Shown here: positions 2,081 through 62,677 of the stretch, in pieces
How the letters are laid out: every line of letters begins with the position of its first letter
Position numbering within the stretch: position 1 is the first letter of the stretch
DNA from: Olivibacter domesticus
GTDB lineage: Bacteria; Bacteroidota; Bacteroidia; Sphingobacteriales; Sphingobacteriaceae
DNA: 64,000 bases
Assembly (NCBI RefSeq): GCF_900109575.1
Contig: NZ_FOAF01000004.1
Coordinates: 124,001-188,000, forward strand
Direction of reading: 5' to 3'
Translations under genes and position numbers: made by a program
The notes under the pieces: model-generated
Databases searched by the model: none
Seen by the model: the letters and a program-made list of their open reading frames with translations, nothing else
Told to the model about the DNA's origin: nothing

Positions 2081-2200
2081 ATTCGTTTTTCGTTACTTGT
2101 TATTGGTTATTCGTTATTGGTTATTCGTTATTTGTCGAATAGTTGAGTTGTTGAATAGTTTGTTAGACTACTTAACTACTATCACTACTTAACTATTCAC
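2081..2200. repeat. 7-nt periodic tract followed by 8-nt periodic tract
   Basis: From 2081 to 2136 there are eight consecutive heptads in perfect phase: ATTCGTT, TTTCGTT, ACTTGTT, ATTGGTT, ATTCGTT, ATTGGTT, ATTCGTT, ATTTGTC. From about 2134 the spacing changes to eight: GTCGAATA, GTTGAGTT, GTTGAATA, GTTTGTTA, and then inverted copies ending in TTAACTATT near 2197. On the mRNA of the minus-strand GH20 gene the octads come first and the heptads end exactly at the start codon. The two octad halves could pair as a long imperfect hairpin. Confidence 0.85.
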
Positions 2201-30618: not shown

Positions 30619-32526
30619 TTATTCGTAGACTTCAAACTCAGCAATACTTAATTGACGGTTTTCATTTCCTATAGACTGTTTAGCTATAAGTTTAATAAAT
30701 TTCGCACTTGCTTCTGCTTTTAATGGTATATATTGTAGAATTGGGTTAGCTTTTATGTTTGAAAATTCGCCCTCTGCGATTTTATTCCATTCTTTTCCGT
30801 CACCACTCACAAAATATTCATATTTCTCAACAATACCATCATGTTTCCCGTCCTGTCTTGGGAGATAACCTAAAGCTGAAAAATGCTGAACCGAGCCTAA
30901 GTCGATTATGATGGAATTATCTTCTGTAGCTAGCCAAAATGTTTTTTTATCTCCATCTATTGCTTTTTTTGCATCTGCACTTTCAACGGACCATGTGGTT
31001 TTTGCTATTCCTTGTCGTTCATTTGTCCCTGCATTTCGCAATGCTTTAGGCTCCGCGAAAAGGCCTACATCACTTAAGGCGATACTAACAGGTGCGAAGA
31101 CTTTTATGCGTAGCTTGGACGTTTCCACAAAATTATCCATACGAATAATCCGGTTAGCACCAATACTAGTTGCTTTTGCAATATTTACCCACTCGCCATC
31201 TTTCCATTCATCTATTAAAACACTATCAATGCGCTGTCCCAATTTTATATTTTCACGCAAACGAATAATATTGAACTCACGGGCAGCAGGAAGATCAATC
31301 AATAGTTCTGCCTGATGAACAGCATCATCTGTAGCCCAATAACTATAACGGTCGGCATCGACTAAGTTCACTACTCCGTATTTTTTATTATTACTTTTAC
31401 GAACATTAGATGGCTGGAAGGTAGCACCCTTTATCAGATTTTCCCCAAACACATTCTGCAACAGTGTACCAAACGCTTTAAGTGCCTGTACATCATTTGG
31501 GTGAAGTAAACCATCTGTGTTAGGCGACAAGCCTAGATCAAATGCTCCACCCCTTCCTACACTTTTACAATATAAATCAAACAACATGGCTGGTGTTTTC
31601 ACTTGATCATCTTGGGATGCATGATAAAACCATCCTGGTCTCAAAGGCACATCACATTCGGTAGGTATCCACTGTTCTCCGTTTCTTGTTCCACTGCCAA
31701 GATTAGCATCATCCATATAACCGGGCATAGGAGGTTTACCCTCTTTACCTACTAGCGTAATCGTAGACCAGCTGGTTTCTGGTGCAATACCTTTTTCATT
31801 CCCGACCCAGCGCACATCTAAACCAATATCACTGAAGATATTGGCCTTTGGTTGCATGGATCGTGTAATAGCCCATGTATTTTTCCAGTCATAATAGGTA
31901 GACTGATCCACTTTCCTCTTTTCTTTCTTCCCTCCATAATATCCATCGCCGCCATTTGCACCATCGTGCCAACTCATAAAAAGATTACCGTAGTTACTGT
32001 AAAGTTCTTTTAGTTGATTACGATATATTTCCACATAAGCTGGTGTTCCATAGGCTGGATTATTCCTGTCCCAAGGCGAACAGTATACACCAAATTTTAA
32101 GCCTGCTTTATTTGCTGCCTGCTGAAATTCTTTCACCATGTCGCCTTTACCATTTCGCCAAGGACTCTCACTGATATTATATGCAGCTGTTTTTGTGGGC
32201 CAAAGCGCAAAGCCATCATGATGCTTCGCCACAGAAATTATTCCTTTAAAACCGCCGGCTTTAGCCGCTTCTACAATCTGACTTGCATCAAATTTTGTGG
32301 GATTAAAGATGGCCGGATCAGCATCACCATAGCCCCACTCCTTATCTTGAAATGTAGTAGGTGTAAAATGGATAAGACAATACATTTCTGTTTCATGCCA
32401 AGCCAGTTGATGTTTACTCGGCAACGCACCATAAGGTTTTGGAGCATCATCGAAGTCCTGCGCGATAGTGCTACCTGCCAATAAACAAGCAGCAAATCCA
32501 AAGAGAAGATTTTTTTTGACATACAT
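30619..32526 (-). CDS. alpha-L-fucosidase, GH29 family (subfamily B-like) with C-terminal F5/8-type carbohydrate-binding domain
   Basis: This 635-residue secreted enzyme has a signal peptide (MYVKKNLLFGFAACLLAGSTIAQ). The barrel contains LAWHETEMYCLIHFTPTTF, AKHHDGFALWPTKT and the probable nucleophile Asp in FMSWHDGANGGDGYYGG. That motif resembles the WxDGANG seen in alpha-1,3/4-specific GH29-B enzymes. About residues 500-635 form a discoidin/F5/8 type C (CBM32-like) domain (KKAIDGDKKTFWLATEDN ... FIKLIA). The enzyme may act on Lewis-type fucose. It is transcribed after lutC and before the GH20, with periodic repeats on both sides. Confidence 0.9.
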   Translation of the reverse strand: MYVKKNLLFGFAACLLAGSTIAQDFDDAPKPYGALPSKHQLAWHETEMYCLIHFTPTTFQDKEWGYGDADPAIFNPTKFDASQIVEAAKAGGFKGIISVAKHHDGFALWPTKTAAYNISESPWRNGKGDMVKEFQQAANKAGLKFGVYCSPWDRNNPAYGTPAYVEIYRNQLKELYSNYGNLFMSWHDGANGGDGYYGGKKEKRKVDQSTYYDWKNTWAITRSMQPKANIFSDIGLDVRWVGNEKGIAPETSWSTITLVGKEGKPPMPGYMDDANLGSGTRNGEQWIPTECDVPLRPGWFYHASQDDQVKTPAMLFDLYCKSVGRGGAFDLGLSPNTDGLLHPNDVQALKAFGTLLQNVFGENLIKGATFQPSNVRKSNNKKYGVVNLVDADRYSYWATDDAVHQAELLIDLPAAREFNIIRLRENIKLGQRIDSVLIDEWKDGEWVNIAKATSIGANRIIRMDNFVETSKLRIKVFAPVSIALSDVGLFAEPKALRNAGTNERQGIAKTTWSVESADAKKAIDGDKKTFWLATEDNSIIIDLGSVQHFSALGYLPRQDGKHDGIVEKYEYFVSGDGKEWNKIAEGEFSNIKANPILQYIPLKAEASAKFIKLIAKQSIGNENRQLSIAEFEVYE

Positions 32527-32600
32527 AGTCTACAAACATAAACTTACATCAAATTTAATCATTCAGGATTATTAGCCTAATGTTCAGCTATATTAGCCAT

Positions 32601-32692
32601 ATCGTTATTGGTTATTTGTTTTAGTTACGAGTTGCCCGTTATGAGTTGCGAGCACTTAACTAATCAACAATTTAACTAATTAACTATTCAAC
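32601..32692. repeat. 7-nt tract (32601-32654) plus 8-nt tract (32655-32692)
   Basis: Heptads: ATTGGTT, ATTTGTT, TTAGTT (one base short), ACGAGTT, GCCCGTT, ATGAGTT, GCGAGCA. Octads: TAATCAAC, AATTTAAC, TAATTAAC, TATTCAAC. The last octad overlaps the end of lutC, supplying its final codons and TAG. The order along the minus-strand mRNA is lutC stop, octads, heptads, then the GH29 gene. Confidence 0.85.
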
Positions 32693-33304
32693 GTCACCAA
32701 TCAAATAAATCCATAAACTACGGGGACCGTGAGCGCCCAATACCAGAGACTGCTCAATATCAGCAGTCTTAGAAGGTCCTGCAATAAAGGCCCCATAATC
32801 ATCTTGTCCCAAGCCCATACGCTCATAAGCCTGGTGCATGTTGCTTACAATCGTTTTCTTATCTACCAGAAGAATTAGATGTTGACAGATAAAAGGAAGT
32901 ACACGTATTATTGTTTCTGGCACCCAAAGAGCACTATTTTCGGCTACTCCCAAATCGGCTTTCATGATGGCCACCTCTACATCTTGGAAAGTATGTGGAT
33001 CGATGTCTGAAGAATCAATCTGCTCAGCGAAATTTTCAAAGCCAACAGAAGTGGAAACCACCCTTAACTTGCCACTTGCTTGCCATTTCTTCTGCAGTTC
33101 AGGCAGATATACTTCCTTTAGATGATCTTCAATCGCTTCCAAGCTATTGACTTCTATCACACTACTCCCAACAGCTTGGGCTACCTCTGTAAACTTAACA
33201 ACAGGATCACTATATACCGTAGGAGTTTCAAGCGCCGTAGGCAAGGGAAGAACCTCAGGTTGTGCTAACTTAACAGCTTGAAGTATTTTTTCTCTGCTAT
33301 TCAT
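32684..33304 (-). CDS. lutC: LutC/YkgG-type LUD-domain protein of lactate utilisation
   Basis: This 206-residue LUD-domain protein is the third component of the LutABC complex, which oxidises L-lactate to pyruvate. Motifs are VVSTSVGFENFAEQIDSS, VEVAIMKADLGVAENSALWV, and the C-terminal GPSKTADIEQSLVLGAHGPRS, the last a LUD hallmark. It has no signal or membrane segment. The gene lies 144 bp after lutB, with the spacer made of periodic repeats. Its last two codons lie inside an octad repeat. The order lutA, lutB, lutC is standard. Confidence 0.93.
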   Translation of the reverse strand: MNSREKILQAVKLAQPEVLPLPTALETPTVYSDPVVKFTEVAQAVGSSVIEVNSLEAIEDHLKEVYLPELQKKWQASGKLRVVSTSVGFENFAEQIDSSDIDPHTFQDVEVAIMKADLGVAENSALWVPETIIRVLPFICQHLILLVDKKTIVSNMHQAYERMGLGQDDYGAFIAGPSKTADIEQSLVLGAHGPRSLWIYLIGDVE

Positions 33305-33315
33305 ATTATTTTTTT

Positions 33316-33449
33316 AGTAGCAAGACATAAGTATCAAGTAGCAAGACATAAGTCGTAACACGTTCTGCGTGATAAAGATATTCATCACTCATCTGCTTAT
33401 ACTTTGCACTTAAATTCATCGTTCATTGCTCATCATTCATCACTATTCT
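33316..33449. repeat. 7-nt periodic spacer between lutB and lutC
   Basis: Block 1 (33316-33357) has six heptads: AGTAGCA, AGACATA, AGTATCA, AGTAGCA, AGACATA, AGTCGTA. It includes a repeated 17-base string 21 bases apart. Block 2 (33380-33449) has ten heptads, among them ATTCATC, ACTCATC, TTCATCG, TTCATTG, CTCATCA and TTCATCA. The tract runs from the lutB stop to within 12 bp of the lutC start. The two blocks are in different sequence families but share the period. Confidence 0.85.
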
Positions 33450-34834
33450 TAAATCTTTTTATCCTTCCCCCTATTAGCATACCATTCACTAAACGATTCC
33501 TTTGGAGGAGCAGGCATTTCGCGCCCTTTATACCAAGGGTTTAACCCATTATTAACAGTAAAAGGTGCATATTTCAACGTGAGCCTACCTAGTTTGCCAG
33601 CCAATTTGAACTTTGTTGGGGAAGACAAAGTAGCCGCCATCAGTTTCATGGCCACCGTTTTCTTCTTGTCGGTATACCCCGCTTTCACCAATTCTTGTCG
33701 CCATTTATACAATTGATCATGTATATCGATTTTTACAGGGCACACATTACTGCATGAACCACAAAGAGTAGAAGCAAAAGGCAAATCTGAAAATTCTTTC
33801 ATATCCAAATTTGGTGCCAATATAGACCCTATAGGCCCACTCACTGCATTGTGATAACTATGTCCGCCACTTCTTCTATAAACCGGACAAGTGTTCATGC
33901 AGGCACCGCAACGGATACATTTTAATGAATTACGAAAATTCGTTCTTCCCAGCTGTCTACTTCTACCATTATCAACTAATATCACGTGCATTTCTTGTCC
34001 TTTACGAGGTTTTTTAAAATGACTTGAATAAGTAGTAATGGGCTGTCCGGTAGCACTTCTAGTAAGCAAACGCAAGAAAACACCCAAATGTGCTCTTTTA
34101 GGAATAATCTTTTCTATGCCCATACTTGCAATATGAATATTCGAAAGATGGGCTCCCATGTCTGCATTCCCCTCATTGGTACAGATCACCATCTCTCCTG
34201 TTTCGGCAATCGCGAAATTAACACCTGTTAATGCAGCCTTTCTTGTGATGAACACATCGCGAAGATGTTGACGCGCCGTTTCAGTTAAAATTTGAGGATC
34301 TGACACGCCTGCTTCCGTTCCTAAATGTTCATGGAAAAGATCACCAATTTCTTCTTTCTTTTTATGGATACAGGGAAGAACAATATGACTGGGCATCTCT
34401 TTAGCTAACTGGACAATCCGTTCGCCTAAATCGGAATCGATCACTTCTATTCCCTGTTTTGCTAAATAATCATTCAAATGGCATTCTTCCGTTAACATGG
34501 ATTTACTTTTCACCATACGGTCAATACCTTGTTTTTTCAATAGATTGAACACAATGTTGTTATGCTCTTCGGCATCAGCAGCCCAATGTACTACAACACC
34601 ATTGGCTGAAGCCTTTTGCTCAAATTCCTCTAGATATTGTGACAAATTAGAAAGTACATGACTTTTTATTTGAGATGCGGTGTCTCTCAATTCTTCCCAT
34701 TCCAAAAGATCATGTGTCAAACGGTCTCTTTTCGTTCTAACAAACCAAAGGGTTTTATCATGCCAATCCACACGTGCTTCATCAGCATTAAAGTGGTCGG
34801 CTAACGTATGATGTTTTTTTTCGTTTGCTTGCAT
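33449..34834 (-). CDS. lutB: LutB-type iron-sulfur protein of lactate utilisation
   Basis: This 461-residue protein combines an N-terminal LUD domain (about 70-290; LTGVNFAIAETGEMVICTNEG) with two 4Fe-4S cluster motifs near 300-380. These are CIRCGACMNTCPVYRRSGGH and CGSCSNVCPVKIDIHDQL. A C-terminal DUF3390-like tail follows, ending in RGKDKKI. It passes electrons from lactate oxidation with LutA and LutC. All eight cluster cysteines are present. It is preceded by lutA with a 101-bp spacer and is part of the same minus-strand transcript. Confidence 0.95.
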   Translation of the reverse strand: MQANEKKHHTLADHFNADEARVDWHDKTLWFVRTKRDRLTHDLLEWEELRDTASQIKSHVLSNLSQYLEEFEQKASANGVVVHWAADAEEHNNIVFNLLKKQGIDRMVKSKSMLTEECHLNDYLAKQGIEVIDSDLGERIVQLAKEMPSHIVLPCIHKKKEEIGDLFHEHLGTEAGVSDPQILTETARQHLRDVFITRKAALTGVNFAIAETGEMVICTNEGNADMGAHLSNIHIASMGIEKIIPKRAHLGVFLRLLTRSATGQPITTYSSHFKKPRKGQEMHVILVDNGRSRQLGRTNFRNSLKCIRCGACMNTCPVYRRSGGHSYHNAVSGPIGSILAPNLDMKEFSDLPFASTLCGSCSNVCPVKIDIHDQLYKWRQELVKAGYTDKKKTVAMKLMAATLSSPTKFKLAGKLGRLTLKYAPFTVNNGLNPWYKGREMPAPPKESFSEWYANRGKDKKI

Positions 34835-34840
34835 TGCTTT

Positions 34841-34868
34841 TTAGTTTTGCGTTGTGTGTTGCGAGTTG
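34841..34868. repeat. short 7-nt periodic tract between lutA and lutB
   Basis: Four heptads end alike: TTAGTTT, TGCGTTG, TGTGTTG, CGAGTTG. The periodicity becomes weak further right, although ACTAACA, ACTGGTA and ACTCTTT near 34911-34930 keep the spacing. It begins 7 bp before the lutB start on the mRNA. Confidence 0.6.
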
Positions 34869-34935
34869 TGAGAAAATTGGTAGCAGGAGCCCCATACCGA
34901 GTGACCGGCGACTAACAACTGGTAACTCTTTACAA

Positions 34936-35670
34936 TTAATGGCTATTCAATATCTCCGCAATATGTATTACTTTCGTGTTGCTTTTATTCCTACGAAGAA
35001 TCCCTTCCATATGCATTAAACAAGACATATCTGCTCCCGTAATATATTCTGCTCCATGTCTGAGGTGATCCGCCACACGATCTTTTCCCATTTTTACAGA
35101 TACGGCCTCCTCTGCAACGCAAAAAGTTCCTCCAAAACCACAGCATTCATCTATACGATCAAGTTCCACCAATTCGATATCCTTCACCAGATGTAATAAT
35201 TTTCCTGGTTTCGAAAAAGCAGGAGCCGTTAACTCACTCATTTGAGAGAGCTTTAAGCCTCGCTGTCCATGACAACTTTGATGAACGCCTACTTTATGCG
35301 GAAAACGAGCGTCCAATTCTTCCACCTTTAATATGTCGGTTAAAAATTCGGTGAGCTCAAAAATACGGTGTCTTATTTCTTCGCCCTGCACAGGGTGTTT
35401 CTCTGAATGCAAATGCTCTTTCAAATGCAACACACAACTTCCTGACGGTGAGATAATATAATCATAACCGCTAAAACGCTCAACAAAATTTTCATTGCAC
35501 CCACCTGCAAGATGTTCGTAGCCCGAATTTGCCATTGGTTGCCCGCAACATGTTTGCCCTTCAGGATAACGAACCGTTACGCCTAGTTTCTCTAAAAGTT
35601 CCAATGTAGCACGCGCCGCCCCAGGGTAAAATTGGTCTACATAGCATGGTACAAATAATGCAACCTCCAT
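34936..35670 (-). CDS. lutA: LutA-type CCG-domain protein of lactate utilisation
   Basis: This 244-residue protein carries two cysteine-rich CCG domains: CYVDQFYPGAARATLELLEK with QTCCGQPMANSGY in the first half, and HQSCHGQRGL with ECCGFGGTFCV in the second. It is the first part of the LutABC L-lactate oxidase. The length is typical. A 190-bp spacer separates it from the aldehyde dehydrogenase gene upstream. That spacer is AT-rich, and I saw no firm repeat or promoter in it. Confidence 0.95.
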   Translation of the reverse strand: MEVALFVPCYVDQFYPGAARATLELLEKLGVTVRYPEGQTCCGQPMANSGYEHLAGGCNENFVERFSGYDYIISPSGSCVLHLKEHLHSEKHPVQGEEIRHRIFELTEFLTDILKVEELDARFPHKVGVHQSCHGQRGLKLSQMSELTAPAFSKPGKLLHLVKDIELVELDRIDECCGFGGTFCVAEEAVSVKMGKDRVADHLRHGAEYITGADMSCLMHMEGILRRNKSNTKVIHIAEILNSH

Positions 35671-35860
35671 GTGTATTTGTTTATGTTTAGTTTAAAATAA
35701 GGTATAGAAGCACAAAGTAAAGAACTTTAGGCATAGCTTCGTTTTACAATTTTTACTATTTATTAAGCTATCTTTACTAAGTTCTTGTTATGCGCCCTCT
35801 ATTAAATCGTCTACTAAGGTAATTTATTTATAATGATCAACTGTCATGGGCAGTCCGCCC

Positions 35861-37228
35861 TTACCTTTCAACCAGATGCCAACCCTTAGGTTTGGTGAAG
35901 GCCCTTATTCCTTGATGAGACAGAGTAGCTCCGACACCAGAATGCTGTCTTCCACTCCATGGTAACGCAGCACTTACCCGATCGCAGCAGTTCCAATATC
36001 CAGACCCTACATTTAATTCTTTAAGAATCGCAACTGCCCGCTCTTGCTTGTCGGAATAGACTCCAGCTGTCAGGCCATAAGCGGTGTCCTGCATCAACTT
36101 CAGCGCTTCTTGATCATTTTTCACGCGCATAATCCCAATTATAGGACCGAAACTTTCTTCACGCATAAGCGTCATTTCATGTGTCACCTCCGTTAAGATG
36201 GTAGGTTCAAAATAAAAACCTGGCCTCTCCATCGCTTTTCCACCAAGAAGAAGTGTTGCTCCTTTTTCCAGCGCATCTTGTATTTGTTCTTGTAATACTC
36301 GTATATGTGATCCACGGGTAATCGGTCCGAAGTAAGTTCCCTCTTCGGTGGGATTTCCAATTTTCCAAGTTTTAACTTGATTAACAAAGGCTTCTAAATA
36401 GGCATCATATACCTGCTCATGTACATATATCCGCTCTACAGCACAACAACTTTGTCCATTATTATAAAATGCTCCATCAGCAGTGGCTTCCGCAACAGCC
36501 TTTATATTGGCGATATCTTCTGTAATATAAAGAGCATCTTTACCACCCAGCTCCAGTTGGCAGGGAACCATCCTAGGTGCTACTTGTTGGTATATGTATT
36601 TTCCTGTAACATATGAACCGGTAAAAAAATAACCATTAAGATCCATTGATAGCAAGTACTTTCCTACCTCTCCCGACCCGACAGCTATTTTAAAGGTATT
36701 TTCTGGAACGCCGGCCTCTTTTAGTAAACGATTAATCTGCATGCCCGTATTTGTAGCAAACTCAGACGGTTTATAGAATACCGCGTTGCCGGCTAATAAG
36801 GCTGGAACAAACACATTTACCCCAACAAGATAAGGGTAATTCCAAGCAGAGATATTAGCAACGACTCCTAAGGGTTCATAGCTGATTATTTCTTTTAAAG
36901 AACCTTCTACTCGCATAACTTCATCCGACAGGTATTTCTCCGCATTAGTTGTTAACCAAGTTATGCGTGCAATAGCACCATTGATTTCATTTTTAGCCTG
37001 TTGCAAGGGTTTACCGGTTTCTGTTGTTAAAATGTCAGCTAAAAAACTAATATTTTCTTTTAATAACTCTTTAAAACGTATTAGAATCTTCGTTCGTTCT
37101 TCCAGTGTTTTTTTTGCCCATAGTACTTGGCCGCTTTTTAACTGTTGATATTTTTCTTCCAAGCTGTCAACATGATCGTCTACTATTGTGGCAATTATTT
37201 CTTCTGTTGCTGGATTTATTACTTTCAT
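35861..37228 (-). CDS. NAD(P)-dependent aldehyde dehydrogenase
   Basis: This 455-residue member of the ALDH superfamily lies close to succinate-semialdehyde and gamma-glutamyl-aminoaldehyde dehydrogenases. Motifs are ISAWNYPYLVGVNVFVPAL, the FTGS nucleotide loop, the base Glu in QLELGGKD, and the catalytic Cys in FYNNGQSCCAVERIYV. EESFGPIIGIM follows. It is complete and has no signal peptide. In this operon it would oxidise the aldehyde made by the iron alcohol dehydrogenase two genes upstream. Alternatively it could oxidise lactaldehyde, which would feed LutABC directly downstream. Confidence 0.9.
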   Translation of the reverse strand: MKVINPATEEIIATIVDDHVDSLEEKYQQLKSGQVLWAKKTLEERTKILIRFKELLKENISFLADILTTETGKPLQQAKNEINGAIARITWLTTNAEKYLSDEVMRVEGSLKEIISYEPLGVVANISAWNYPYLVGVNVFVPALLAGNAVFYKPSEFATNTGMQINRLLKEAGVPENTFKIAVGSGEVGKYLLSMDLNGYFFTGSYVTGKYIYQQVAPRMVPCQLELGGKDALYITEDIANIKAVAEATADGAFYNNGQSCCAVERIYVHEQVYDAYLEAFVNQVKTWKIGNPTEEGTYFGPITRGSHIRVLQEQIQDALEKGATLLLGGKAMERPGFYFEPTILTEVTHEMTLMREESFGPIIGIMRVKNDQEALKLMQDTAYGLTAGVYSDKQERAVAILKELNVGSGYWNCCDRVSAALPWSGRQHSGVGATLSHQGIRAFTKPKGWHLVER

Positions 37229-37232
37229 TGTT

Positions 37233-37349
37233 GTTAAGTATCAAGATGTAAGACAAAAGTAGCAAAACGTTATTGGTTGTGAGTTACGAGTTGTGAGATT
37301 CGTAGAATTAATTAGCTAATTCGGTAATTGGCTAATCAGCTAATTACCA
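37233..37349. repeat. ten heptads and five octads between the amidotransferase and ALDH genes
   Basis: Heptads 37233-37302: GTTAAGT, ATCAAGA, TGTAAGA, CAAAAGT, AGCAAAA, CGTTATT, GGTTGTG, AGTTACG, AGTTGTG, AGATTCG. Octads 37303-37342: TAGAATTA, ATTAGCTA, ATTCGGTA, ATTGGCTA, ATCAGCTA, then ATTACCAT across the amidotransferase stop. This is the clearest example of the order stop, octads, heptads, start, with the heptads ending 4 bp from the ALDH ATG. Confidence 0.9.
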
Positions 37350-38039
37350 TATTGTTTCCAAAAAAGCCTCTCTTATGTTCTTCACAAAAGGACTGTTCAT
37401 ATCTTCCATCCTTTCGGGATGCCATTGAACCAAGCATAGGAAGGGTGCTTCAGCTGGATTCTTTCTTTCCAATGCTTCCACAACGCCATCCCGGGAGACA
37501 GCCGATGAGACTAAACCTTTTCCTATCTTATCCGCACTCTGATGATGCAAACTATTAATCATTCCCTCTGTGCAATCAACAACATCAAACAATTGAGATT
37601 GTTGATTCACATATACAATATGCTCGCTTAAGTTTCCATTCGGTAATTTTGCATGGTTAAATTTGCCCCATGAGGGTAGATCTGGAATTAAGGTTCCGCC
37701 AAAGAAAACGTTTACTAGCTGTAGGCCTCTGCATATCCCTAGAAGGGGTAGTTGTTCGGTTTGTACATGTTGCATAAGCGCTAGTTCGAAGTCATCCCGT
37801 CGCTCATCAAAATCAACCGGCATACAATAAGATAGATAATCTAGTTGATTATAATATCTGGGATGCACATCCTCTCCCCCTGTAAAAACCATCGCCTCAC
37901 ATTTTTTTACTTCTTCAAAATTATCAAGGCCATATCCTATGCGGATAACTTCTATATTTTCATCAGTTCCCTTTATCCAATTGGCATATAATTGGTACAT
38001 CCTTCCATCAGTCATTCCGATCTTTATTTTCTTCTGCAT
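37344..38039 (-). CDS. class I glutamine amidotransferase, gamma-glutamyl hydrolase type (PuuD-like)
   Basis: This 231-residue cytoplasmic hydrolase is of the peptidase C26 kind. The nucleophile lies in LLGICRGLQLVNVFFGG, and the His/Glu of the triad in QWHPERM near the end. FTGGEDVHPRYYN is the typical oxyanion region of the PuuD group. PuuD cleaves gamma-glutamyl-GABA to glutamate and GABA. Here the gene lies between an iron alcohol dehydrogenase and an aldehyde dehydrogenase, with a glutamine-synthetase-like ligase upstream. It would remove the glutamyl group at the end of such a pathway. Confidence 0.9.
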   Translation of the reverse strand: MQKKIKIGMTDGRMYQLYANWIKGTDENIEVIRIGYGLDNFEEVKKCEAMVFTGGEDVHPRYYNQLDYLSYCMPVDFDERRDDFELALMQHVQTEQLPLLGICRGLQLVNVFFGGTLIPDLPSWGKFNHAKLPNGNLSEHIVYVNQQSQLFDVVDCTEGMINSLHHQSADKIGKGLVSSAVSRDGVVEALERKNPAEAPFLCLVQWHPERMEDMNSPFVKNIREAFLETIW

Positions 38040-38052
38040 ACCTTCTTTTGTC

Positions 38053-38300
38053 GTTGTTGGTTGTTAGTTATTCGTTATTGGTTATTCGTTATTGATAGGT
38101 ATCGAAATAGCACAACCATTCCTAACCCGTCACCCCGAGCAAAGCCGAGGGGTCTCATCCTTATATAGTTATTAGCTGTGAGTTTGTTATGCGAATCAAA
38201 TGAAATAGTCTAAATTACTGATCATAGCCTAAACCGGATTTAAACTCAACGATTCAAAACTCAACTATTTAGCTACTCAACGATTCAACCATTTTAACTA
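38053..38300. repeat. heptads, REP-like insert and octads between ADH and amidotransferase genes
   Basis: Six exact heptads lie at 38053-38094 (GTTGTTG, GTTGTTA, GTTATTC, GTTATTG, GTTATTC, GTTATTG). Octads of the AACGATTC/AACTATTT kind lie from about 38245 to 38298, with one short and one long step. A different repeat (38129-38159) lies between them. The right end reaches the ADH stop. Confidence 0.85.
38129..38159. repeat. REP-like element
   Basis: GTCACCCCGAGCAAAGCCGA followed by GGGGTCTCATC resembles the dispersed 'GTCA..CGAG..GGTCT' repeats seen in many genomes, with ACCCC at 38132 able to pair with GGGGT at 38149. The G+C content is clearly above the surrounding DNA. Confidence 0.55.
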
Positions 38301-38301
38301 A

Positions 38302-39438
38302 TTATAACGCTTCCTCATATAGCCTCTTAAAGTCTGCCCTAGTTACCGGTTTCGGGTTATTGGGATGTGCAAAATCGGCTATTGCCAAATCAACCAATGT
38401 ATTGATGTGTTCGCTCCGCACGCCTATATGCCGCAGGTTTCTTGGAATCCCGATACGCTCATTCAGCTGAAATAAGTATTGCACAACCGCATCACCGTTC
38501 TCTTCTCGAAGTTCCAGCGCGCGGGCTATACGCCTAAACTTGTCTTCGTTATCTTTTAAATTAAAGGCCATACCATAGGGAATATTCACCGCATTTGCTA
38601 AGCCATGATGCGTATCAAGCAGGGAGGACAATGGGTGAGCAAGTGAATGTACAACTCCTAATCCTTTTTGAAATGCGATCGCACCCATCATAGAGGCAAC
38701 CAACATATTACTTCGTACACCTTCATCAGGCATGAGCACTGCTTTTTCGAGCGACTGTCCAATTAACCGTATCCCTTCTAGGGCAATCCCGTCGCAAATA
38801 GGATTTAGATTCTTTGCTAAAAAAGCCTCCATATTGTGCGTTAAAGCATCCATCCCAGTAGCGGCAGTTATGTGAGGAGGTAAATCCATTGTTAATAGAG
38901 GGTCTGCAAACACCACTTTGGCCATTAGTTTTGGTGAAAAAAGAATGCGTTTTTGATGTGTTTCGTCGTCCGCAATGATAGCACTTCTACCTACTTCACT
39001 ACCCGTTCCAGAAGTAGTTGGAACCGTGATAAAAGGAGGCACCTCATTTGTCACATAAACATCTCCTCCTATTAAATCATCATATTTAAATAGATCTTCA
39101 CGATGATTGATACGTAAAGCGATTGCTCGTGTAATATCCAAAGCCGCTCCGCCACCTATTCCAATAATACAATCCCGCGTCGTTTGATCCCAAACATCTG
39201 TGCCCTTATAAACATCCGATTTTACCGGATTTTTATGTGTATCGGAAAAAATTTCGACTTGTACCCCTTTTGATGTAAGATCGTTTACAATATCTTGAAA
39301 AAAAGGTAACTGCACAATTATCGAATCGGTTACAATTAACGGTTTGCTCAAACCGTTGCTCTTTAGATAAGCTGGTAATTCTTTTACCGCACCACAACCA
39401 AAACGAATGGTGGTTGGAATATTAAATTGATGAATCAT
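38302..39438 (-). CDS. iron-containing alcohol dehydrogenase
   Basis: This 378-residue member of the Fe-ADH family (PF00465) has the NAD loop GIGGGAALDITRAIALR and the TVPTTSGTGSEVGRSAII block. The metal ligands are in MDALTHNMEAFLAKN (Asp, His) and LGVVHSLAHPLSSLLDTHHG (His, His). The family includes FucO-type lactaldehyde/propanediol and butanol enzymes. Downstream of a glutamine-synthetase-like ligase it takes the place that an amine oxidase (PuuB) has in the putrescine pathway. That suggests the glutamylated substrate carries a hydroxyl group. Alternatively it could handle lactaldehyde from fucose. Confidence 0.92.
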   Translation of the reverse strand: MIHQFNIPTTIRFGCGAVKELPAYLKSNGLSKPLIVTDSIIVQLPFFQDIVNDLTSKGVQVEIFSDTHKNPVKSDVYKGTDVWDQTTRDCIIGIGGGAALDITRAIALRINHREDLFKYDDLIGGDVYVTNEVPPFITVPTTSGTGSEVGRSAIIADDETHQKRILFSPKLMAKVVFADPLLTMDLPPHITAATGMDALTHNMEAFLAKNLNPICDGIALEGIRLIGQSLEKAVLMPDEGVRSNMLVASMMGAIAFQKGLGVVHSLAHPLSSLLDTHHGLANAVNIPYGMAFNLKDNEDKFRRIARALELREENGDAVVQYLFQLNERIGIPRNLRHIGVRSEHINTLVDLAIADFAHPNNPKPVTRADFKRLYEEAL

Positions 39439-39442
39439 TTTT

Positions 39443-39659
39443 GTTGTTAGTTATTAGTTGCCCGTTGTGAGTACCCTTACCTTCTATATCCAACCTTCTA
39501 CGTTATTTAGTTGTTAGTTATTCATATTTAGTAGCGACGTTGCGAGCACCTCTCACCCTATACGTTCCGCCCTTTGCCTTATACCTTTCAGCTTTAAACT
39601 CTTTGCTTTTCGCTTCCTAAAACTTAGTACTTACAACTTATTACTTAAAGCCTCTTAAC
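39443..39659. repeat. spacer made almost wholly of 7-nt periodic sequence (31 steps)
   Basis: Starting at 39443 the sequence can be cut into 31 heptads without a phase change up to the glutamine-synthetase-like gene's stop. Examples are GTTGTTA, GTTATTA, GTTGCCC, GTTGTGA at the left, ACCTTTC, AGCTTTA, TGCTTTT, CGCTTCC in the middle, and TAGTACT, TACAACT, TATTACT at the right. The sequence theme changes every few units, but the step of seven persists. There are no octads here. Confidence 0.85.
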
Positions 39660-41023
39660 TATATTATCTCAAAATATCGTTTCAGTTCCCAGTCGGTTAC
39701 AGCTTTCGAAAATTGTTGCCATTCCCATTCGCGGCTGGAGCAAAAATGGTCGACGAAATTATCACCAAAAAGCTCTTTCGCGATGTCCGACTGCCTCATT
39801 TGCTTAGTTGCTTCATACAAATTTACCGGCAAAGTTCCATTTGAGTAATCCCGATAACCATTACCTACTGTAGCTGGCTGATCTAATGCGAGTTTGTTTT
39901 TGATTCCATACAGACCTGCTGCCAGACAAGCGGCAATAGCCAAGTAAGGATTTGTATCCGAACCTACAACCCTGGTTTCTATCCGGGATGACTTCTTTCC
40001 CGCTGATAAGACTCTCAAGGCTACCGTTCTATTATCCATACCCCATGTTAACGTAGTGGGTGCCCAAGCTCCTTCTACCAGTCGCTTGTAACTATTTACG
40101 GTCGGCGCAAACATCGGTAATATATGAGGTAGACAATATAATTGTCCGGCTACATATTGCCGCATAATTTCGCTCATTTTAGTTGGAGCATGACCTTCAA
40201 AAAATAAATTTGTCTCTGAATTTTTATCCCATAGACTTTGGTGTACATGTCCGCTGCAACCCGGTAAGTCGGCTCGCCACTTGGCCATAAATGAGGCGAC
40301 TATACCATGTTTATAAGCGATTTCCTTTACCGCAGTCTTGAATAATATAGCCCTATCAGCGGCTTCTAACGCCTCTGCATAAACAATAGCTGCCTCGTAA
40401 ACTCCTGGTCCCGTTTCAGTGTGTAAACCTTCGAGCGGTATCTCAAATTTAGCTAATAACTCAAATAAATCACTAAAGAATGCATTCTTTAAGGAGCTTC
40501 TTAATATGGAATAACCAAACATACCGGGAGTTAAAGGTTTTGGATCTTTGTAATCTTTCTGCGCTAATGTATCAGGCGTTTCTTCAAAGTTAAACCATTC
40601 AAATTCTTGTGAAAAGTAAGGTGTATAACCTAAGAGAGTGCATTCATTAATAACCTTCTTTAATAGCTGTCGTGGACAAACATAGGCACCTTCACCCTTA
40701 ATATCTAAAAAATCTCCCAAAAAAAAGGGGACATCATTTTCCCAGGGTATTTTACGAAAAGTGGAAAGATCTAGTTGTAGCGGCATATCCGGATAACCTG
40801 AATGCCAGCCGGTAAATTTCACATTATCGTAAGCTAAATCATGCGCATCCCATCCAAATACGACATCGCAAAAACCCAATTCACCTTTTAATACAGCATT
40901 GAATTTATCAACAGAAATATATTTCCCACGTAATACACCATCAATGTCAGAAGCTGCTAATTTTACTCTGCCAGCAGGATGTTGCGCTATATATTCTTTA
41001 ACTTGCTCTACTGTTATTTTCAT
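39659..41023 (-). CDS. glutamine synthetase family protein, probable gamma-glutamyl-amine ligase (PuuA/GlnA4-like)
   Basis: This 454-residue member of the GS fold has an N-terminal beta-grasp (AASDIDGVLRGKYISVDKF) and a C-terminal catalytic domain. Catalytic landmarks are FEWFNFEETP, the metal Glu in HTETGPGVYEAAI, the metal His in GCSGHVHQSLWD, and RIETRVVGSDTNPYLA. Sequences with this opening usually belong to the group that glutamylates amines (putrescine, ethanolamine, isopropylamine) with ATP rather than making glutamine. The start codon overlaps the permease stop by four bases (ATGA), so uptake and ligation are translationally coupled. Exact amine specificity is not readable. Confidence 0.88.
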   Translation of the reverse strand: MKITVEQVKEYIAQHPAGRVKLAASDIDGVLRGKYISVDKFNAVLKGELGFCDVVFGWDAHDLAYDNVKFTGWHSGYPDMPLQLDLSTFRKIPWENDVPFFLGDFLDIKGEGAYVCPRQLLKKVINECTLLGYTPYFSQEFEWFNFEETPDTLAQKDYKDPKPLTPGMFGYSILRSSLKNAFFSDLFELLAKFEIPLEGLHTETGPGVYEAAIVYAEALEAADRAILFKTAVKEIAYKHGIVASFMAKWRADLPGCSGHVHQSLWDKNSETNLFFEGHAPTKMSEIMRQYVAGQLYCLPHILPMFAPTVNSYKRLVEGAWAPTTLTWGMDNRTVALRVLSAGKKSSRIETRVVGSDTNPYLAIAACLAAGLYGIKNKLALDQPATVGNGYRDYSNGTLPVNLYEATKQMRQSDIAKELFGDNFVDHFCSSREWEWQQFSKAVTDWELKRYFEII

Positions 41024-42324
41024 CTTTTAATCACTTTAAATAAACCATAAGAAACTAAAATAATCATCAAGTAAATCGCCCCAACCTCCCAATTATATAT
41101 AAACATCGATACCAAGGAAATGATACCTACTGTTAGCACGATGATCGGAAATAAGGGGTAGGAGGGTACACGGAAAGGTCTATGTAAGTCGGGTTCTTTT
41201 TTTCTCAGTCTTATTAAGGCCACCATTGCAATCACATACAGCGTTAAGGCTCCAAAAACTGATAAGGTGATGATTTCACCTGTTTTTCCTGAAAGTAATG
41301 CCAATATCCCTACTGTCATATTACCCACGAGAGCATAGGCAGGCGTTTGAAACCTTTTTGAGATACCTCCCAAAAAAACCGGCATATTTTGCGCTTTCCC
41401 CATTTCGTAAGTCGATCGTCCTGCCGCCAATATCAGTCCATGAAAAGAAGCAACCAAACCAAATAAACCGACCGTTATAAGCAGGTGATACAAAATATGA
41501 TTATCGCCTGTGATCTGCGCCAATGCTAAAGGAAGAGGCGAATCGGACGTTTCACCGCTTGCACCATTACGAAAAACAATCGCCTCCCATCCTGCGACAC
41601 CAACCGATGAGGCAAAGACCAATATACAAAGCATTGCCAGGGTAAAAATGGCCCATCCGAATCCTTTCTTAATATCTCTTTGCGGGTTTTTAGTTTCCTC
41701 TGCTACATTGGCAATCCCTTCTATTCCTAGAAAAAACCATATAGCAAAGGGAATAGAAGCGAACGCTCCTGACCAACCATTTGGAAATGCATTATGCACT
41801 AGATTTTTTGCAGTAAAGTGAGGGGTCGCAATTCCGACAAACAGTAATAGCTCCCCCACAGCTAGCACCGTAATGATTATTTCAAATGTTGCAGCGGCTT
41901 TTATCCCAATAATATTTAATCCGGTAAATAGTATATAGGCGATAATCGCCGTTTGAATAATTGGCGCTTCTGGAAAGAATGCATTAAAATAGGCTCCGAT
42001 TGCAAAGGCAATGGCTGGAGGAGCAAACACAAATTCAACGGTTTGTGCAATCCCCGAAATAAAAGCAAGATCCTTTCCTAGTACCCTCCCTGCATAGTCA
42101 AATACACCGCCGGCTTTCGGAATAGCACAAGCTAGCTCTGTATAACTGAAGGTAAAAGTGATGTACATGAGCATTACCACAAAAGTTGCTATTGCCATGC
42201 CCAATGTCCCGCCCTTTTCCAAACCCAGGTTCCATCCAAAATACATCCCAGAGATAACATAGCCAACCCCTAAAGCCCATAAAGCAAATGGGGTAAGGGT
42301 CTTTTTTAACGTTGTAGTACTCAT
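41020..42324 (-). CDS. APC-family amino acid/amine permease (ethanolamine permease-like)
   Basis: This 434-residue inner-membrane transporter has about 12 hydrophobic helices. It begins LTPFALWALGVGYVISGMYF and contains the APC signatures YTELACAIPKAGGVFDYAGR, FFLGIEGIANVAEETKNPQR and FHGLILAAGRSTYEMGKA. The closest remembered group is the ethanolamine permease family within APC. It is the first gene of the minus-strand catabolic run and overlaps the ligase gene, which implies the imported compound is the ligase substrate. The promoter should lie within the 487-bp region upstream, but no consensus box was found. Confidence 0.88.
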   Translation of the reverse strand: MSTTTLKKTLTPFALWALGVGYVISGMYFGWNLGLEKGGTLGMAIATFVVMLMYITFTFSYTELACAIPKAGGVFDYAGRVLGKDLAFISGIAQTVEFVFAPPAIAFAIGAYFNAFFPEAPIIQTAIIAYILFTGLNIIGIKAAATFEIIITVLAVGELLLFVGIATPHFTAKNLVHNAFPNGWSGAFASIPFAIWFFLGIEGIANVAEETKNPQRDIKKGFGWAIFTLAMLCILVFASSVGVAGWEAIVFRNGASGETSDSPLPLALAQITGDNHILYHLLITVGLFGLVASFHGLILAAGRSTYEMGKAQNMPVFLGGISKRFQTPAYALVGNMTVGILALLSGKTGEIITLSVFGALTLYVIAMVALIRLRKKEPDLHRPFRVPSYPLFPIIVLTVGIISLVSMFIYNWEVGAIYLMIILVSYGLFKVIKR

Positions 42325-42811
42325 CCATTCATTCGGTTTAATGTTTAAACTGTTCCCCCACAGTTTTTATTGGTTTTGCCACTCTTTTGCTCAAGTCAGT
42401 TGTTCTTCGCGTGGAATGATTGTTAAATATAATAGAAAATATTGCTATATGTACCGAGATAAAAAAGTTAATATATAATTCTTACTTATTTCATCCGTAA
42501 ATAATTAGTTCGTTCATCTTTTACTTTTTAAGGCACTCATGAACCGCAAAGCGGTTTTTAATCCATCGGTCAGATGGAGCTTACCCTGTTTAAACCCCGA
42601 AGGGCTCATGAACACAAAGAATATTTAAAATCCGTGAATAAATTTACATTCCCCTGTGTGATGAATCCGCCAGTTGGCGGATAAACATGGACGGTTCATA
42701 GTCACTTTTTCATAACATTCTTATAAATAGTCTAATATTTTATACATTCGCTTTTTAGAGACTCGGCACCTTATTGTCTATATCAGAAATATTAAGGCTT
42801 AAACACTTTTT
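42325..42811. other. 487-bp divergent intergenic region with small inverted repeats
   Basis: No gene is seen. The region carries a hairpin AACCGC-AAA-GCGGTT at 42542-42556, another TCCGCC-AGTT-GGCGGA at 42666-42681, and ATGGACGGTTCATA at 42687-42700. That last sequence is repeated exactly at 22746-22759, upstream of a GH20 gene. These look like REP-type debris. The region must contain the promoters for both the permease operon and the M3 peptidase. Confidence 0.5.
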
Positions 42812-44923
42812 ATGACCAAATTTTTTTTAGGAATACTCTTATGCTTTATTGTAGCTACAAGTTGCAATTCAAGTAAAAATCAAACCGACAACAAATGGTC
42901 GGCACAAAATCCCTTTTACAAAGAAAGTGACCTTCCCTATCAAGCTCCTGATTTTTCCAAAATCAAAATCACTGATTTCCGTGCTGCATTTGACCAAGGT
43001 ATGAAAGATCATCTGGAGGAGATTGAAAAAATAGCAACGAACAAAGAGGAAGCAACTTTCGAAAACACGCTGACCGCTATGGAGAAAAGCGGCGCGTTGT
43101 TAACCCGTGTAAACAATGTATTCAACTTGCTTACAGGTGCGAACACAAATGATACCCTTCAGCAAATAGAAGCAGAAATAGCACCTAAGCTTGCTGCCCA
43201 CGAGGATGCTATCACTTTCAACGATAAGCTGTTTAAACGTATCGAAAAAATTTATACAGATAAAAGTCAGCTTAAATTAGATGCAGAGTCGGATCGGTTG
43301 GTCGACTATTATTACCAAAAGTTTGTACTAAATGGGGCCAAATTATCAGAAAATGACAAGAGTAGTTTGAAAAAGCTAAATGAAGAAGAGGCCACTTTAA
43401 GTGCAAAATTCACCAATCAGCTCCTCGCTGCTACCAAAGCAGCGGCCTTAAGTGTTGACGATCAAACATCATTGGAGGGGCTTAACGACGGAGATTTAGC
43501 CGCTGCACACAAGAATAACAGCTGGACGCTTTCCTTACAAAATACCACACAACAACCTGCTCTTCAATCATTGAAGAAGCGAGAAACTCGCAAAGAGTTA
43601 TTCGATAAATCTTGGAATCGAGCAGAAAAGGGTGATAAAAATGATACCAGAAGTGCCTTAGCACGGATCGCCGAAATAAGAGCGAAAAAAGCGAACCTCA
43701 TTGGTTTTGACAACTATGCAGCTTGGAAACTACAAAACCAAATGGCCAAAAATCCAGCGATTGTAGAAAAATTTCTATCCGACCTAGTGCCTGCGGCAAC
43801 GGCTAAAGCAAAAAAAGAAGCCTTGGATATACAGGGAGTAATAGACAAGGATAAGGGCGGGTTTCAATTAGCAGCGTGGGATTGGGATTATTATGCTGAA
43901 AAGGTTAGGAAAGCAAAATTTGATCTAGATGAGCAACAGATTAAACCCTATTTTGAGCTCAATAAAGTATTGGAAGATGGTGTGTTTTATGCTGCTAAAT
44001 TGCTTTACGGTATCACTTTTAAAGAAAGACATGATATACCGGTATATCAACCAGATGTACGCGTATTTGAAGTTTTTGAAGAAAATGGAACAAGTATAGG
44101 CCTCTTTTATGGAGATTATTTTAAAAGAGACAATAAGTCGGGCGGTGCATGGATGAGTAATTTAGTAGATCAATCTAAATTATTAGGTACGAAGCCCGTT
44201 ATTTATAACGTATGTAATTTCACCAAACCCGCTGCCGGTCAAGCTGCTCTTATCAGTTTTGATGACGTAACCACCATGTTTCACGAGTTTGGACATGCAC
44301 TACATGGTCTTTTTGCCAACCAGCAATATCCTAGCCTTTCCGGAACCAGTGTAGCACGCGATTTTGTAGAATTCCCTTCACAGTTTAATGAACATTGGGC
44401 ATTGGAATCACAAGTGTTTAGTCACTATGCTAAGCACTATCAAACAGGTGAATCGATGCCGCAGGAGTTAGTAGAAAAAATAAAAAAAGCAGGAACCTTT
44501 AATCAAGGTTATGCGCTTACGGAGCAGCTCGCATCTGCAAGCGTAGATATGTCTTGGCATACGAGAAAGCCTGGTAATGAAATAACTGGAAGTGCAGTAG
44601 ATTCATTTGAAAACCAAGCATTAGTTGACAAGAAACTTAATCTGCCGCAGGTTCCACCTAGATATCGTTCCAGCTATTTTCTCCATATATGGGGCAATGG
44701 CTATGCCGCAGGCTACTATGCGTACTCTTGGACGGAAATGTTGGACCATGATGCTTTTTCATGGTTCGAAGAGAATGGCGGGTTGACACGCAAAAACGGT
44801 CAGCGTTTCCGTGATATGATTCTTTCTAAAGGGAATACAGAAGAATATGCTAAGTTATTCAAGACCTTCAGAGGGCATGATCCAGATATTCAACCAATGC
44901 TAAAAAACAGAGGTTTAAAATAA
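42812..44923 (+). CDS. dcp: M3-family metallopeptidase, peptidyl-dipeptidase Dcp-like lipoprotein
   Basis: This 703-residue zinc peptidase is made as a lipoprotein: MTKFFLGILLCFIVATSC has a lipobox with Cys18. The M3 catalytic domain holds the zinc motif MFHEFGHALHGLF (H491, E492, H495) and the third ligand region GTSVARDFVEFPSQFNEHW. SYFLHIWGNGYAAGYYAYSW near the C-terminus is typical of Dcp. The family removes dipeptides from peptide C-termini. The size is normal. It stands alone on the plus strand between two minus-strand operons, sharing a terminator with the convergent DUF5107 gene. Confidence 0.93.
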   Translation: MTKFFLGILLCFIVATSCNSSKNQTDNKWSAQNPFYKESDLPYQAPDFSKIKITDFRAAFDQGMKDHLEEIEKIATNKEEATFENTLTAMEKSGALLTRVNNVFNLLTGANTNDTLQQIEAEIAPKLAAHEDAITFNDKLFKRIEKIYTDKSQLKLDAESDRLVDYYYQKFVLNGAKLSENDKSSLKKLNEEEATLSAKFTNQLLAATKAAALSVDDQTSLEGLNDGDLAAAHKNNSWTLSLQNTTQQPALQSLKKRETRKELFDKSWNRAEKGDKNDTRSALARIAEIRAKKANLIGFDNYAAWKLQNQMAKNPAIVEKFLSDLVPAATAKAKKEALDIQGVIDKDKGGFQLAAWDWDYYAEKVRKAKFDLDEQQIKPYFELNKVLEDGVFYAAKLLYGITFKERHDIPVYQPDVRVFEVFEENGTSIGLFYGDYFKRDNKSGGAWMSNLVDQSKLLGTKPVIYNVCNFTKPAAGQAALISFDDVTTMFHEFGHALHGLFANQQYPSLSGTSVARDFVEFPSQFNEHWALESQVFSHYAKHYQTGESMPQELVEKIKKAGTFNQGYALTEQLASASVDMSWHTRKPGNEITGSAVDSFENQALVDKKLNLPQVPPRYRSSYFLHIWGNGYAAGYYAYSWTEMLDHDAFSWFEENGGLTRKNGQRFRDMILSKGNTEEYAKLFKTFRGHDPDIQPMLKNRGLK

Positions 44924-62468: not shown

Positions 62469-62523
62469 ACACAAATATAGAATATGTAAGGTATATGACA
62501 TAATTTAATAAGTATAAGCTTTT

Positions 62524-62677
62524 GGTTATTGGTTATTCGTTGTTAGTTATTGGTAGCAAGACTATCTTAGTTACGAGTTGCCGGTTGCGAGTTGTGAGTA
62601 TGATCACTACTTAAAGCTTGACAAATCAACTACTCAACGATTTAGCAAGTCAACAACTTAACGATTCAACGCTATTT
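62524..62677. repeat. 14 heptads and 6 to 7 octads between yraN and the cyclotransferase gene
   Basis: Heptads 62524-62621: GGTTATT, GGTTATT, CGTTGTT, AGTTATT, GGTAGCA, AGACTAT, CTTAGTT, ACGAGTT, GCCGGTT, GCGAGTT, GTGAGTA and three more. Octads 62622-62677: CAAATCAA, CTACTCAA, CGATTTAG, CAAGTCAA, CAACTTAA, CGATTCAA, CGCTATTT. The octads adjoin the yraN stop. The arrangement equals that at 37233, but here in a housekeeping region. Confidence 0.9.

Follow-up and report, generated by a model that had tools for sequence, protein, structure and literature searches.

A heptad array upstream of an alcohol dehydrogenase gene belongs to a genome-wide family of degenerate intergenic arrays in an Olivibacter

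We characterized the spacer in front of the iron-alcohol-dehydrogenase (ADH) gene in a 64,000-nucleotide stretch of the Olivibacter domesticus genome (the window). This target spacer is one of many degenerate intergenic heptad arrays that form a genome-wide family in this Olivibacter. We lean slightly towards explaining the arrays by mutational growth, i.e. in-register duplication of 7 nt, combined with copying between loci; any one specific function appears unlikely at best. Duplication and copying leave the direction of the arrays, the order of their modules and their vocabulary without explanation.

Period and composition of the target spacer

The target spacer is flanked by a glutamine-synthetase-domain gene (39659-41023, minus strand) and the ADH gene (38302-39438, minus strand), both taken from open reading frames (ORFs) and named after Pfam. 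In gene sense it extends from the stop codon of the former to the ATG of the latter. Further Pfam names in the same gene run are peptidase C26, aldehyde dehydrogenase and amino-acid permease. Table 1 lists the arrays of the window, where alpha to epsilon denote recurrent modules that are described below.

Table 1. Heptad arrays of the window and sub-arrays of the target spacer
Feature	Position	Strand	Evidence or remark
Target spacer, composite heptad array	39439-39658	-	lag-7 z 6.3-6.4; ORFs
Start-proximal sub-array, gene sense CTCACAAC GGGCAAC TAATAAC TAACAAC	39443-39471	-	stops 4 nt short of ADH start codon
Second epsilon sub-array, gene sense AATAAC TAACAAC TAAATAAC	39502-39522	-	one 8-nt unit, i.e. 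a phase slip
Purine-rich heptads, gene sense GAAAGGT ATAAGGC AAAGGGC and following	39555-39611	-	local lag-7 identity 0.51-0.63 in windows from 39555-39597
Stop-proximal heptads, gene sense GTAATAA GTTGTAA GTACTAA	39616-39650	-	sequence
Sister array in next spacer: beta-like units, GC palindrome, epsilon heptads toward start codon	38040-38301	-	lag-7 z 3.5
Sister array: delta, epsilon, gamma units	37229-37343	-	lag-7 z 2.9
Sister array: delta units	34835-34935	-	lag-7 z 6.1
Sister array: alpha GATGAAT, gamma CTTGCTA units	33305-33448	-	lag-7 z 3.9
Sister array, weak signal: beta, delta, epsilon	32527-32683	-	lag-7 z 3.0; 2.2-2.5 in other runs
Sister array: beta, delta, gamma, epsilon	62502-62675	-	lag-7 z 4.0
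Sister array upstream of ORF 452-2080: epsilon, then beta-like units	2081-2168	-	TRF; local lag-7 identity 0.72

For the segment 39443-39659 the autocorrelation at lag 7 was 0.481 as compared to 0.287 in 2000 dinucleotide shuffles (z 6.3), and none of the 2000 shuffles reached the observed value. The period of seven that a preliminary description of this segment had put forward was thus borne out. The signal recurred at lag 14 (z 5.3) and lag 21 (z 4.1) and was not significant at lag 28 (z 1.3), while lags 2-6 and 8-13 all gave |z| < 2. The changes of heptad theme along the segment, which the description had also pointed out, are visible directly in the sequence.

Its picture of 31 in-phase units without slip did not hold. 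In 42-base windows starting at 39513 and 39527 the lag-7 identity was at background (0.31 and 0.29), such that local identity leaves a mid-spacer stretch of about 40 bases without period; the value at lag 28 likewise speaks against 31 units in phase. In gene sense, the first four AAC-ending units end at phases 1 (CTCGCAAC), 2 (GAATAAC), 2 (TAACAAC) and 3 (AAATAAC), and the later ones (CTCACAAC, GGGCAAC, TAATAAC, TAACAAC) all at phase 6. Four phases among these units mean that the register slips at least three times. A constant period of seven can be retained for the target spacer, not for the array family, in which the beta module has period 8. The parallel with TRAP drawn in the description is an analogy only.

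A search of 32400-42900 against Rfam returned a single chance-level match, which lay outside the target spacer. The accompanying literature check, as far as the available text of the papers goes, found heptad arrays in print (PMC4679880, PMC4692102) and none that we recognised as described for Olivibacter. The description knew of no comparable element in Bacteroidota, which is contradicted by the heptad arrays published for five Bacteroidetes in 2015 (PMC4679880, available text).

Arrays in the genome of O. domesticus and in its relatives

A 22-base pattern of about three units (up to 3 mismatches) matched the 6.78-Mb genome of O. domesticus 138 times, the reversed control not once. The preliminary description had proposed to compute lags 2-20 for all spacers; on C10:1-800k a z of 4 was exceeded at lag 7 by 16 of 416 spacers, at lag 14 by 10 and at lag 21 by 6, as compared to 0-2 at each remaining lag. 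At the laxer threshold of z 3, 23 spacers were found at lag 7 and at most 10 at any lag outside 7, 14 and 21 (10 at lag 3, 9 at lag 4). On C9:1-238k, 18 of 109 spacers exceeded z 3 at lag 7, followed by 11 at lag 8. For these counts genes were called with an ORF script (minimum 70 or 80 aa) instead of taken from annotation, and the z of a spacer was mostly based on 40 to 100 shuffles; repeated runs differ by a few tenths or more.

Arrays occurred in 69 of 440 tandem, 13 of 103 convergent and 6 of 139 divergent spacers. Their density is uneven: C10:520-712k and C9:120-260k are rich, and most of C10:0-500k is low. The stretch C10:520-720k (L117-L126), about 190 kb with dense arrays, has a GC content of 0.36-0.40 and a skew near zero, and ends at a jump of both near 720k. 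A link to the terminus, considered as C10:520-712k ends close to this change of GC skew, was dropped because C9, with negative skew in almost every bin, is array-dense as well; dnaA is located on C15. On C10:760-780k (L129) about 800 positions show high identity at lag 7 and lag 8, which is probably a low-complexity or repeat-rich gene.

Within the genus we compared O. domesticus with O. jilunii P8502 (G001), O. sitiensis DSM 17696 (G002), Olivibacter sp. XZL3 (G003) and a further species, G004. Exact three-unit GTTRTTN matches (reversed controls in brackets) numbered 116 (0) in O. domesticus, 302 (32) in O. jilunii, 32 (3) in XZL3, 1 (0) in O. sitiensis and 0 (0) in G004, i.e. two species are array-rich, one is intermediate and two are poor. 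In G004 none of 38 spacers exceeded z 3 at lag 7.

Family-wide, 30 of 201 genomes had any such match; outside Olivibacter G029 had 24 and every other genome at most 8. Class-wide the number was 37 of 149, led by G246 with 161 (7 controls) and including G214 with 31 (0). In G263, G267, G270 and G298 the controls about equalled or exceeded the matches, and in G205 31 matches stood against 56 controls; these genomes may therefore merely be repeat-rich. G214 and G246 belong to two other families of Bacteroidia, and in their sampled stretches the GTTRTTN unit is present with outward direction (see below). Among 77 non-Olivibacter loci, 17 of 295 spacers exceeded z 3 at lag 7 as compared to 1-8 at the other lags tested. 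The corresponding number for Pedobacter was 0 of 115. Pattern hits guided the choice of C10:400-800k, the first C12 and C3 stretches, part of the O. jilunii genome and everything from G214, G246 and G029, so the array rates in these stretches are not genome rates.

Congeners appear to share the junctions of their arrays often, on moderate evidence. For 19 junctions with a lag-7 value in O. domesticus and O. jilunii, both were positive at 9, only O. domesticus at 1, only O. jilunii at 2 and neither at 7 (one-sided p 0.005), using a threshold of z 2.5 that was set afterwards and at which two of the 19 junctions sit. With values from a rerun the numbers were 7, 2, 3 and 7 (p 0.05). For XZL3 they were 6, 2, 3 and 3 of 14 junctions, i.e. 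no association (p 0.34).

Array contents at shared junctions differ widely. At the target junction O. jilunii carries a recognisable orthologous array of 126 nt, O. sitiensis a 104-nt array of another vocabulary (lag-7 z 6.0) and G004 317 nt without a 7-nt period; at the orthologous junctions examined in Pedobacter and Chitinophaga most spacers comprise a few tens of bases. The units of O. sitiensis, GAGATRT and GCGACRT, lie directly before its ADH gene (C89 at about 42483-42574, L186). Aligning the target spacer with its O. jilunii orthologue gave a local score of 110 (z 7.9). Given that the best unrelated O. jilunii spacer reached 99, alignability mostly reflects shared vocabulary. The gaps of this poor alignment (7, 6, 5, 12, 4, 10, 1, 8, 1, 41, 4) are not multiples of 7.

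Identity at fourfold-degenerate sites was 0.316 between O. domesticus and O. jilunii and 0.25-0.31 between O. domesticus and the other three species, i.e. saturated. Shared 12-mers per 10,000 positions and pair amounted to 78 between O. domesticus and O. jilunii, 95 within O. domesticus and 146 within O. jilunii. A vocabulary surviving such saturation is no neutral leftover but is kept, re-made or exchanged.

Vocabulary, module order and direction

The commonest unit in the arrays is GTTRTTN. In O. domesticus GTT follows GTT at a distance of exactly 7 in 413 cases, as compared to 73 in shuffles. The variability along the unit is uneven in all five genome samples (O. domesticus, O. jilunii, XZL3, G214 and G246), with a purine at position 4, mostly T at positions 5 and 6, and all bases at position 7. 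For O. domesticus the fractions are 0.87 purine at position 4, 0.67 T at position 5, 0.56 T at position 6, and A.49, C.18, G.19 and T.14 at position 7. The profiles of O. jilunii, XZL3 and G246 resemble this one (purine at position 4 in 0.84-0.94 for the four genomes), and that of G214 is weaker (0.73).

Five recurrent modules, alpha to epsilon, tend to succeed one another in a fixed order as the gene border is approached, with alpha or beta first, delta or gamma second and epsilon last. In O. domesticus we counted beta before gamma 10:1, beta before delta 10:0, beta before epsilon 10:0, gamma before epsilon 18:1 and delta before epsilon 14:3. Alpha and beta (3:1 in O. domesticus, 0:4 in O. 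jilunii) and delta and gamma (12:6) are not ordered relative to each other. Module pairs up to 200 nt apart had the same orientation in 108 cases and opposite orientation in 4 in O. domesticus, and in 27 and 1 in O. jilunii; XZL3 had no module pair within 200 nt. The module patterns were defined from the O. domesticus spacers on which they were then counted, such that the O. jilunii counts are more independent, though some of its spacers had been seen beforehand.

The beta module (GTTAAGTA/GTTGAATA) has period 8. It occurs in 15 of the 25 O. domesticus and O. jilunii spacers with z > 3 at lag 8 as compared to 29 of 656 spacers overall, so the lag-8 signal has a separate source in this module. 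Beta modules (e.g. 32656-32686, 37309-37346 and 2167-2195) have period 8 or 16 and adjoin heptad modules in the preferred order.

The strand that reads GTT points away from the gene in 136 spacer-strand cases and toward it in 23. The ratio was 77:9 in O. domesticus, 12:3 in O. jilunii, 8:1 in XZL3, 20:4 in G214 and 19:6 in G246. At the starts of O. domesticus genes 40 cases were outward and 2 inward, at stops 37 and 7. A pure 5'-UTR element was rejected, as arrays are about equally frequent at stops and occur in convergent spacers too.

As one alternative, the arrays would be a surface for a DNA- or RNA-binding protein that reads GTTRTT or AAYAAC every 7 bases, with selection keeping the vocabulary. 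Uneven variability along the unit and a vocabulary kept between species despite saturated fourfold sites would suit a sequence reader, and for TAACTGA arrays MacGregor suggested readers of the S1, Csp or Csr kind (PMC4679880, available text). However, the near-equal outward counts at starts and stops fit no single regulatory role, and vocabularies vary inside the genus, as seen for O. sitiensis at the target junction. We consider such a binding surface rather improbable.

According to a second alternative the two ends of a spacer would contain complementary arms, GTTRTTN first and NAAYAAC last, and these would fold the spacer out as an RNA or cruciform DNA hairpin, which may serve mRNA stability or insulation or bring the stop codon near the next start codon. 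In the sampled stretches of G214 and G246 heptad spacers indeed fold well below shuffles, with mean z of -3.0/-3.8 on the two strands (n 16) and -2.9/-3.0 (n 19); the non-heptad spacers of these stretches gave -1.2 to -1.7. GTT comes first in 15 of the 15 spacers of these genomes with both arms. For 19 heptad spacers from other named or MAG loci the arm complementarity was 10.6 within and 7.2 between spacers, 8 of the 19 exceeding the 90th percentile. The scarcity of arrays in divergent spacers would fit as well. In O. domesticus, however, heptad spacers fold no better (z -1.59/-1.24, n 53) than others (-1.76/-1.88, n 60), and their arms are not more complementary within a spacer (10.1) than between spacers (11.2). 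The same holds for the arms in O. jilunii, where folding resembles that of other spacers, and in G246 the within score (10.7) is hardly higher than the between score (10.4). The target spacer alone gave a folding z of -0.50, which is not strong. Since arms and folding in O. domesticus and O. jilunii do no better than controls, the hairpin was not extended to the target spacer. As a general architecture it is unsupported in these two genomes and was kept for G214 and G246; overall we regard it as unlikely, if less so than the binding surface.

G246 also has hairpin-like spacers made of a different heptad, approximately GAAGWCN, in which the purine arm leads (at about L231:10556-10683 and L241:10697-10816). 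In O. jilunii arrays a palindrome of type CCTGCCTGCCGGCAGGCAGG recurs, namely in the spacers orthologous to 32527-32683, 34835-34935, 38040-38301, 62502-62675 and 65025-65219, and CCTGCCTGCC is present in 6 of 64 sampled spacers. The CCTGCCTGCCGGCAGGCAGG type was not seen among the O. domesticus arrays examined.

Origin of the arrays and relation to known repeats

The preliminary description had left a choice between an expanding, mutating repeat and a protein-read surface, and the former is the better fit. Where identical 12-mers recur within one spacer, their distance is a multiple of 7 in 41 of 67 counts for O. domesticus, 27 of 32 for O. jilunii and 13 of 21 for G246; for G214 the number was just 4 of 13, and XZL3 spacers contained no repeated 12-mer. 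Separate loci of O. domesticus share exact composite blocks of 22-33 nt. Per 10,000 positions the sharing at k=24 was 1.64 within O. domesticus versus 0.54 with O. jilunii, and at k=28 0.47 versus 0.

We therefore favour, by a small degree, a scheme in which arrays would expand and be renewed as one or more 7-nt units are duplicated in tandem and in register, through slippage or template switching, although the strains compared are too distant to show gain or loss of 7 nt directly. Point changes and occasional 1-nt slips would accumulate, and blocks would be exchanged with arrays at other loci, presumably by ectopic copying. The arrays are found mainly between genes that are co-directional or convergent. 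Moderate junction sharing of O. domesticus with O. jilunii and XZL3, the 8-nt step of the beta module and the lack of lag-7 spacers in G004 count against this scheme, as do the gap lengths in the alignment with the O. jilunii orthologue and the 12-mer results for G214 and XZL3. A one-unit microsatellite slipping in place, which the preliminary description had already set aside, does not fit, given several ordered themes and blocks common to separate loci. Pure slippage leaves the direction, the order of modules and the uneven variability of unit positions unexplained. Saturated fourfold sites next to a kept vocabulary and outward direction suggest a further constraint on top of mutation, which may lie in a sequence bias of array generation or in weak selection acting on the DNA or its transcripts.

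REP/BIME elements with their RAYT transposases are dispersed, intergenic, polar and hairpin-forming, and so are the arrays, the last in some relatives. A dispersed, transposase-moved REP/MITE-type element with heptad-built ends would explain the preferred order and polarity of the modules, identical blocks at separate O. domesticus loci, GC palindromes inside several arrays and the only moderate junction sharing. In contrast to REP/BIME, the units repeat every 7 nt, and the O. domesticus genome gave 0 matches to the RAYT-type Y1_Tnp (PF01797), a search that in a control found PF01797 in 5 of 14 genomes; REP/RAYT identity was rejected for lack of a Y1_Tnp match. Hairpins in O. domesticus were not above control either. 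Several array junctions are moreover common to congeners, and a mobile element of this type is, in our judgement, very improbable. A GC-rich palindrome (CCCCGAG CAAAGCC GAGGGG type) lies at 38133-38152, inside the array 38040-38301, and again on C10 at about 636.7-636.9k. It may represent a REP-like dispersed element, with no RAYT gene in the O. domesticus genome.

For decades, bacterial spacers have been known to contain heptad repeats, such as the STRR of cyanobacteria. Heptanucleotide LSSRs were reportedly described by Mrazek in 2007, heptads being a favoured length of long bacterial simple repeats for which polymerase slippage is said to have been proposed. The target spacer shares the heptad length with both and is far more diverged than a near-perfect repeat.

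Closer parallels come from two papers, cited here from their available text. Rehm and others described degenerate heptads of the form GGGANTN (the GGGAATC repeat) in Xanthomonas and of the form GGGGAYT in Nostoc, where the array strand leads away from the gene and few arrays lie between divergent genes; in two Xanthomonas the heptads are mostly at the same genes with length and sequence changed (PMC4692102). These arrays share with ours the 7-nt tandem intergenic unit and the outward direction at starts and stops. Their unit is G-rich and quadruplex-forming, whereas GTTRTTN and GTTRYSA of Olivibacter have no G tracts, and the Olivibacter arrays add several themes in preferred order and an 8-nt module.

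MacGregor reported arrays of TAACTGA from Beggiatoaceae, cyanobacteria and five Bacteroidetes. In BOGUAY and Flexibacter they lie for the most part directly upstream of starts, in Microcystis they have mixed orientations, with single-base variants rare as repeats in BOGUAY and other heptads mixed into Bacteroidetes spacers (PMC4679880). Read on the other strand and rotated, TAACTGA is GTTATCA, which fits the Olivibacter delta class GTTRYSA. Exact TAACTGA doublets were absent from the sampled spacers of O. domesticus, O. jilunii, XZL3, G214 and G246. Arrays beside starts in one orientation are found in O. domesticus as well, but about equally at stops, and the published system, as far as the available text describes it, has one fixed unit where Olivibacter arrays have several. 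Heptad arrays as a kind, including those of Bacteroidetes (PMC4679880), and the direction rule for other phyla (PMC4692102) are thus already known. In the literature searched we recognised no description of heptad arrays in Olivibacter or of ordered heptad modules, and found neither an 8-nt module nor a vocabulary surviving saturation there.

One could go further and suppose that a single general, so far unrecognised process operates in Bacteroidia, Xanthomonas, Nostoc and Beggiatoaceae. It would follow a sequence code (GTTRTTN/GTTRYSA in the present case) and write 7-nt units from the gene border outward, whether at a start or at a stop. In Olivibacter the vocabularies would be layered in set order from the border inward, making the spacer a dated record, and the code would be set by templated or sequence-reading machinery rather than chance slippage. 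We hold this to be doubtful, about as much as the binding surface.

The available text of both papers leaves open the function of heptad repeats and the reason for their direction (PMC4692102, PMC4679880). Module order, the 8-nt module and a vocabulary that outlives saturation are not predicted by plain slippage. One pattern ties together the direction rule of Xanthomonas and Nostoc, the TAACTGA arrays of Beggiatoaceae and the mixed heptads of Bacteroidetes. With array-rich and array-poor species and many comparable gene junctions, Olivibacter is a good test case.
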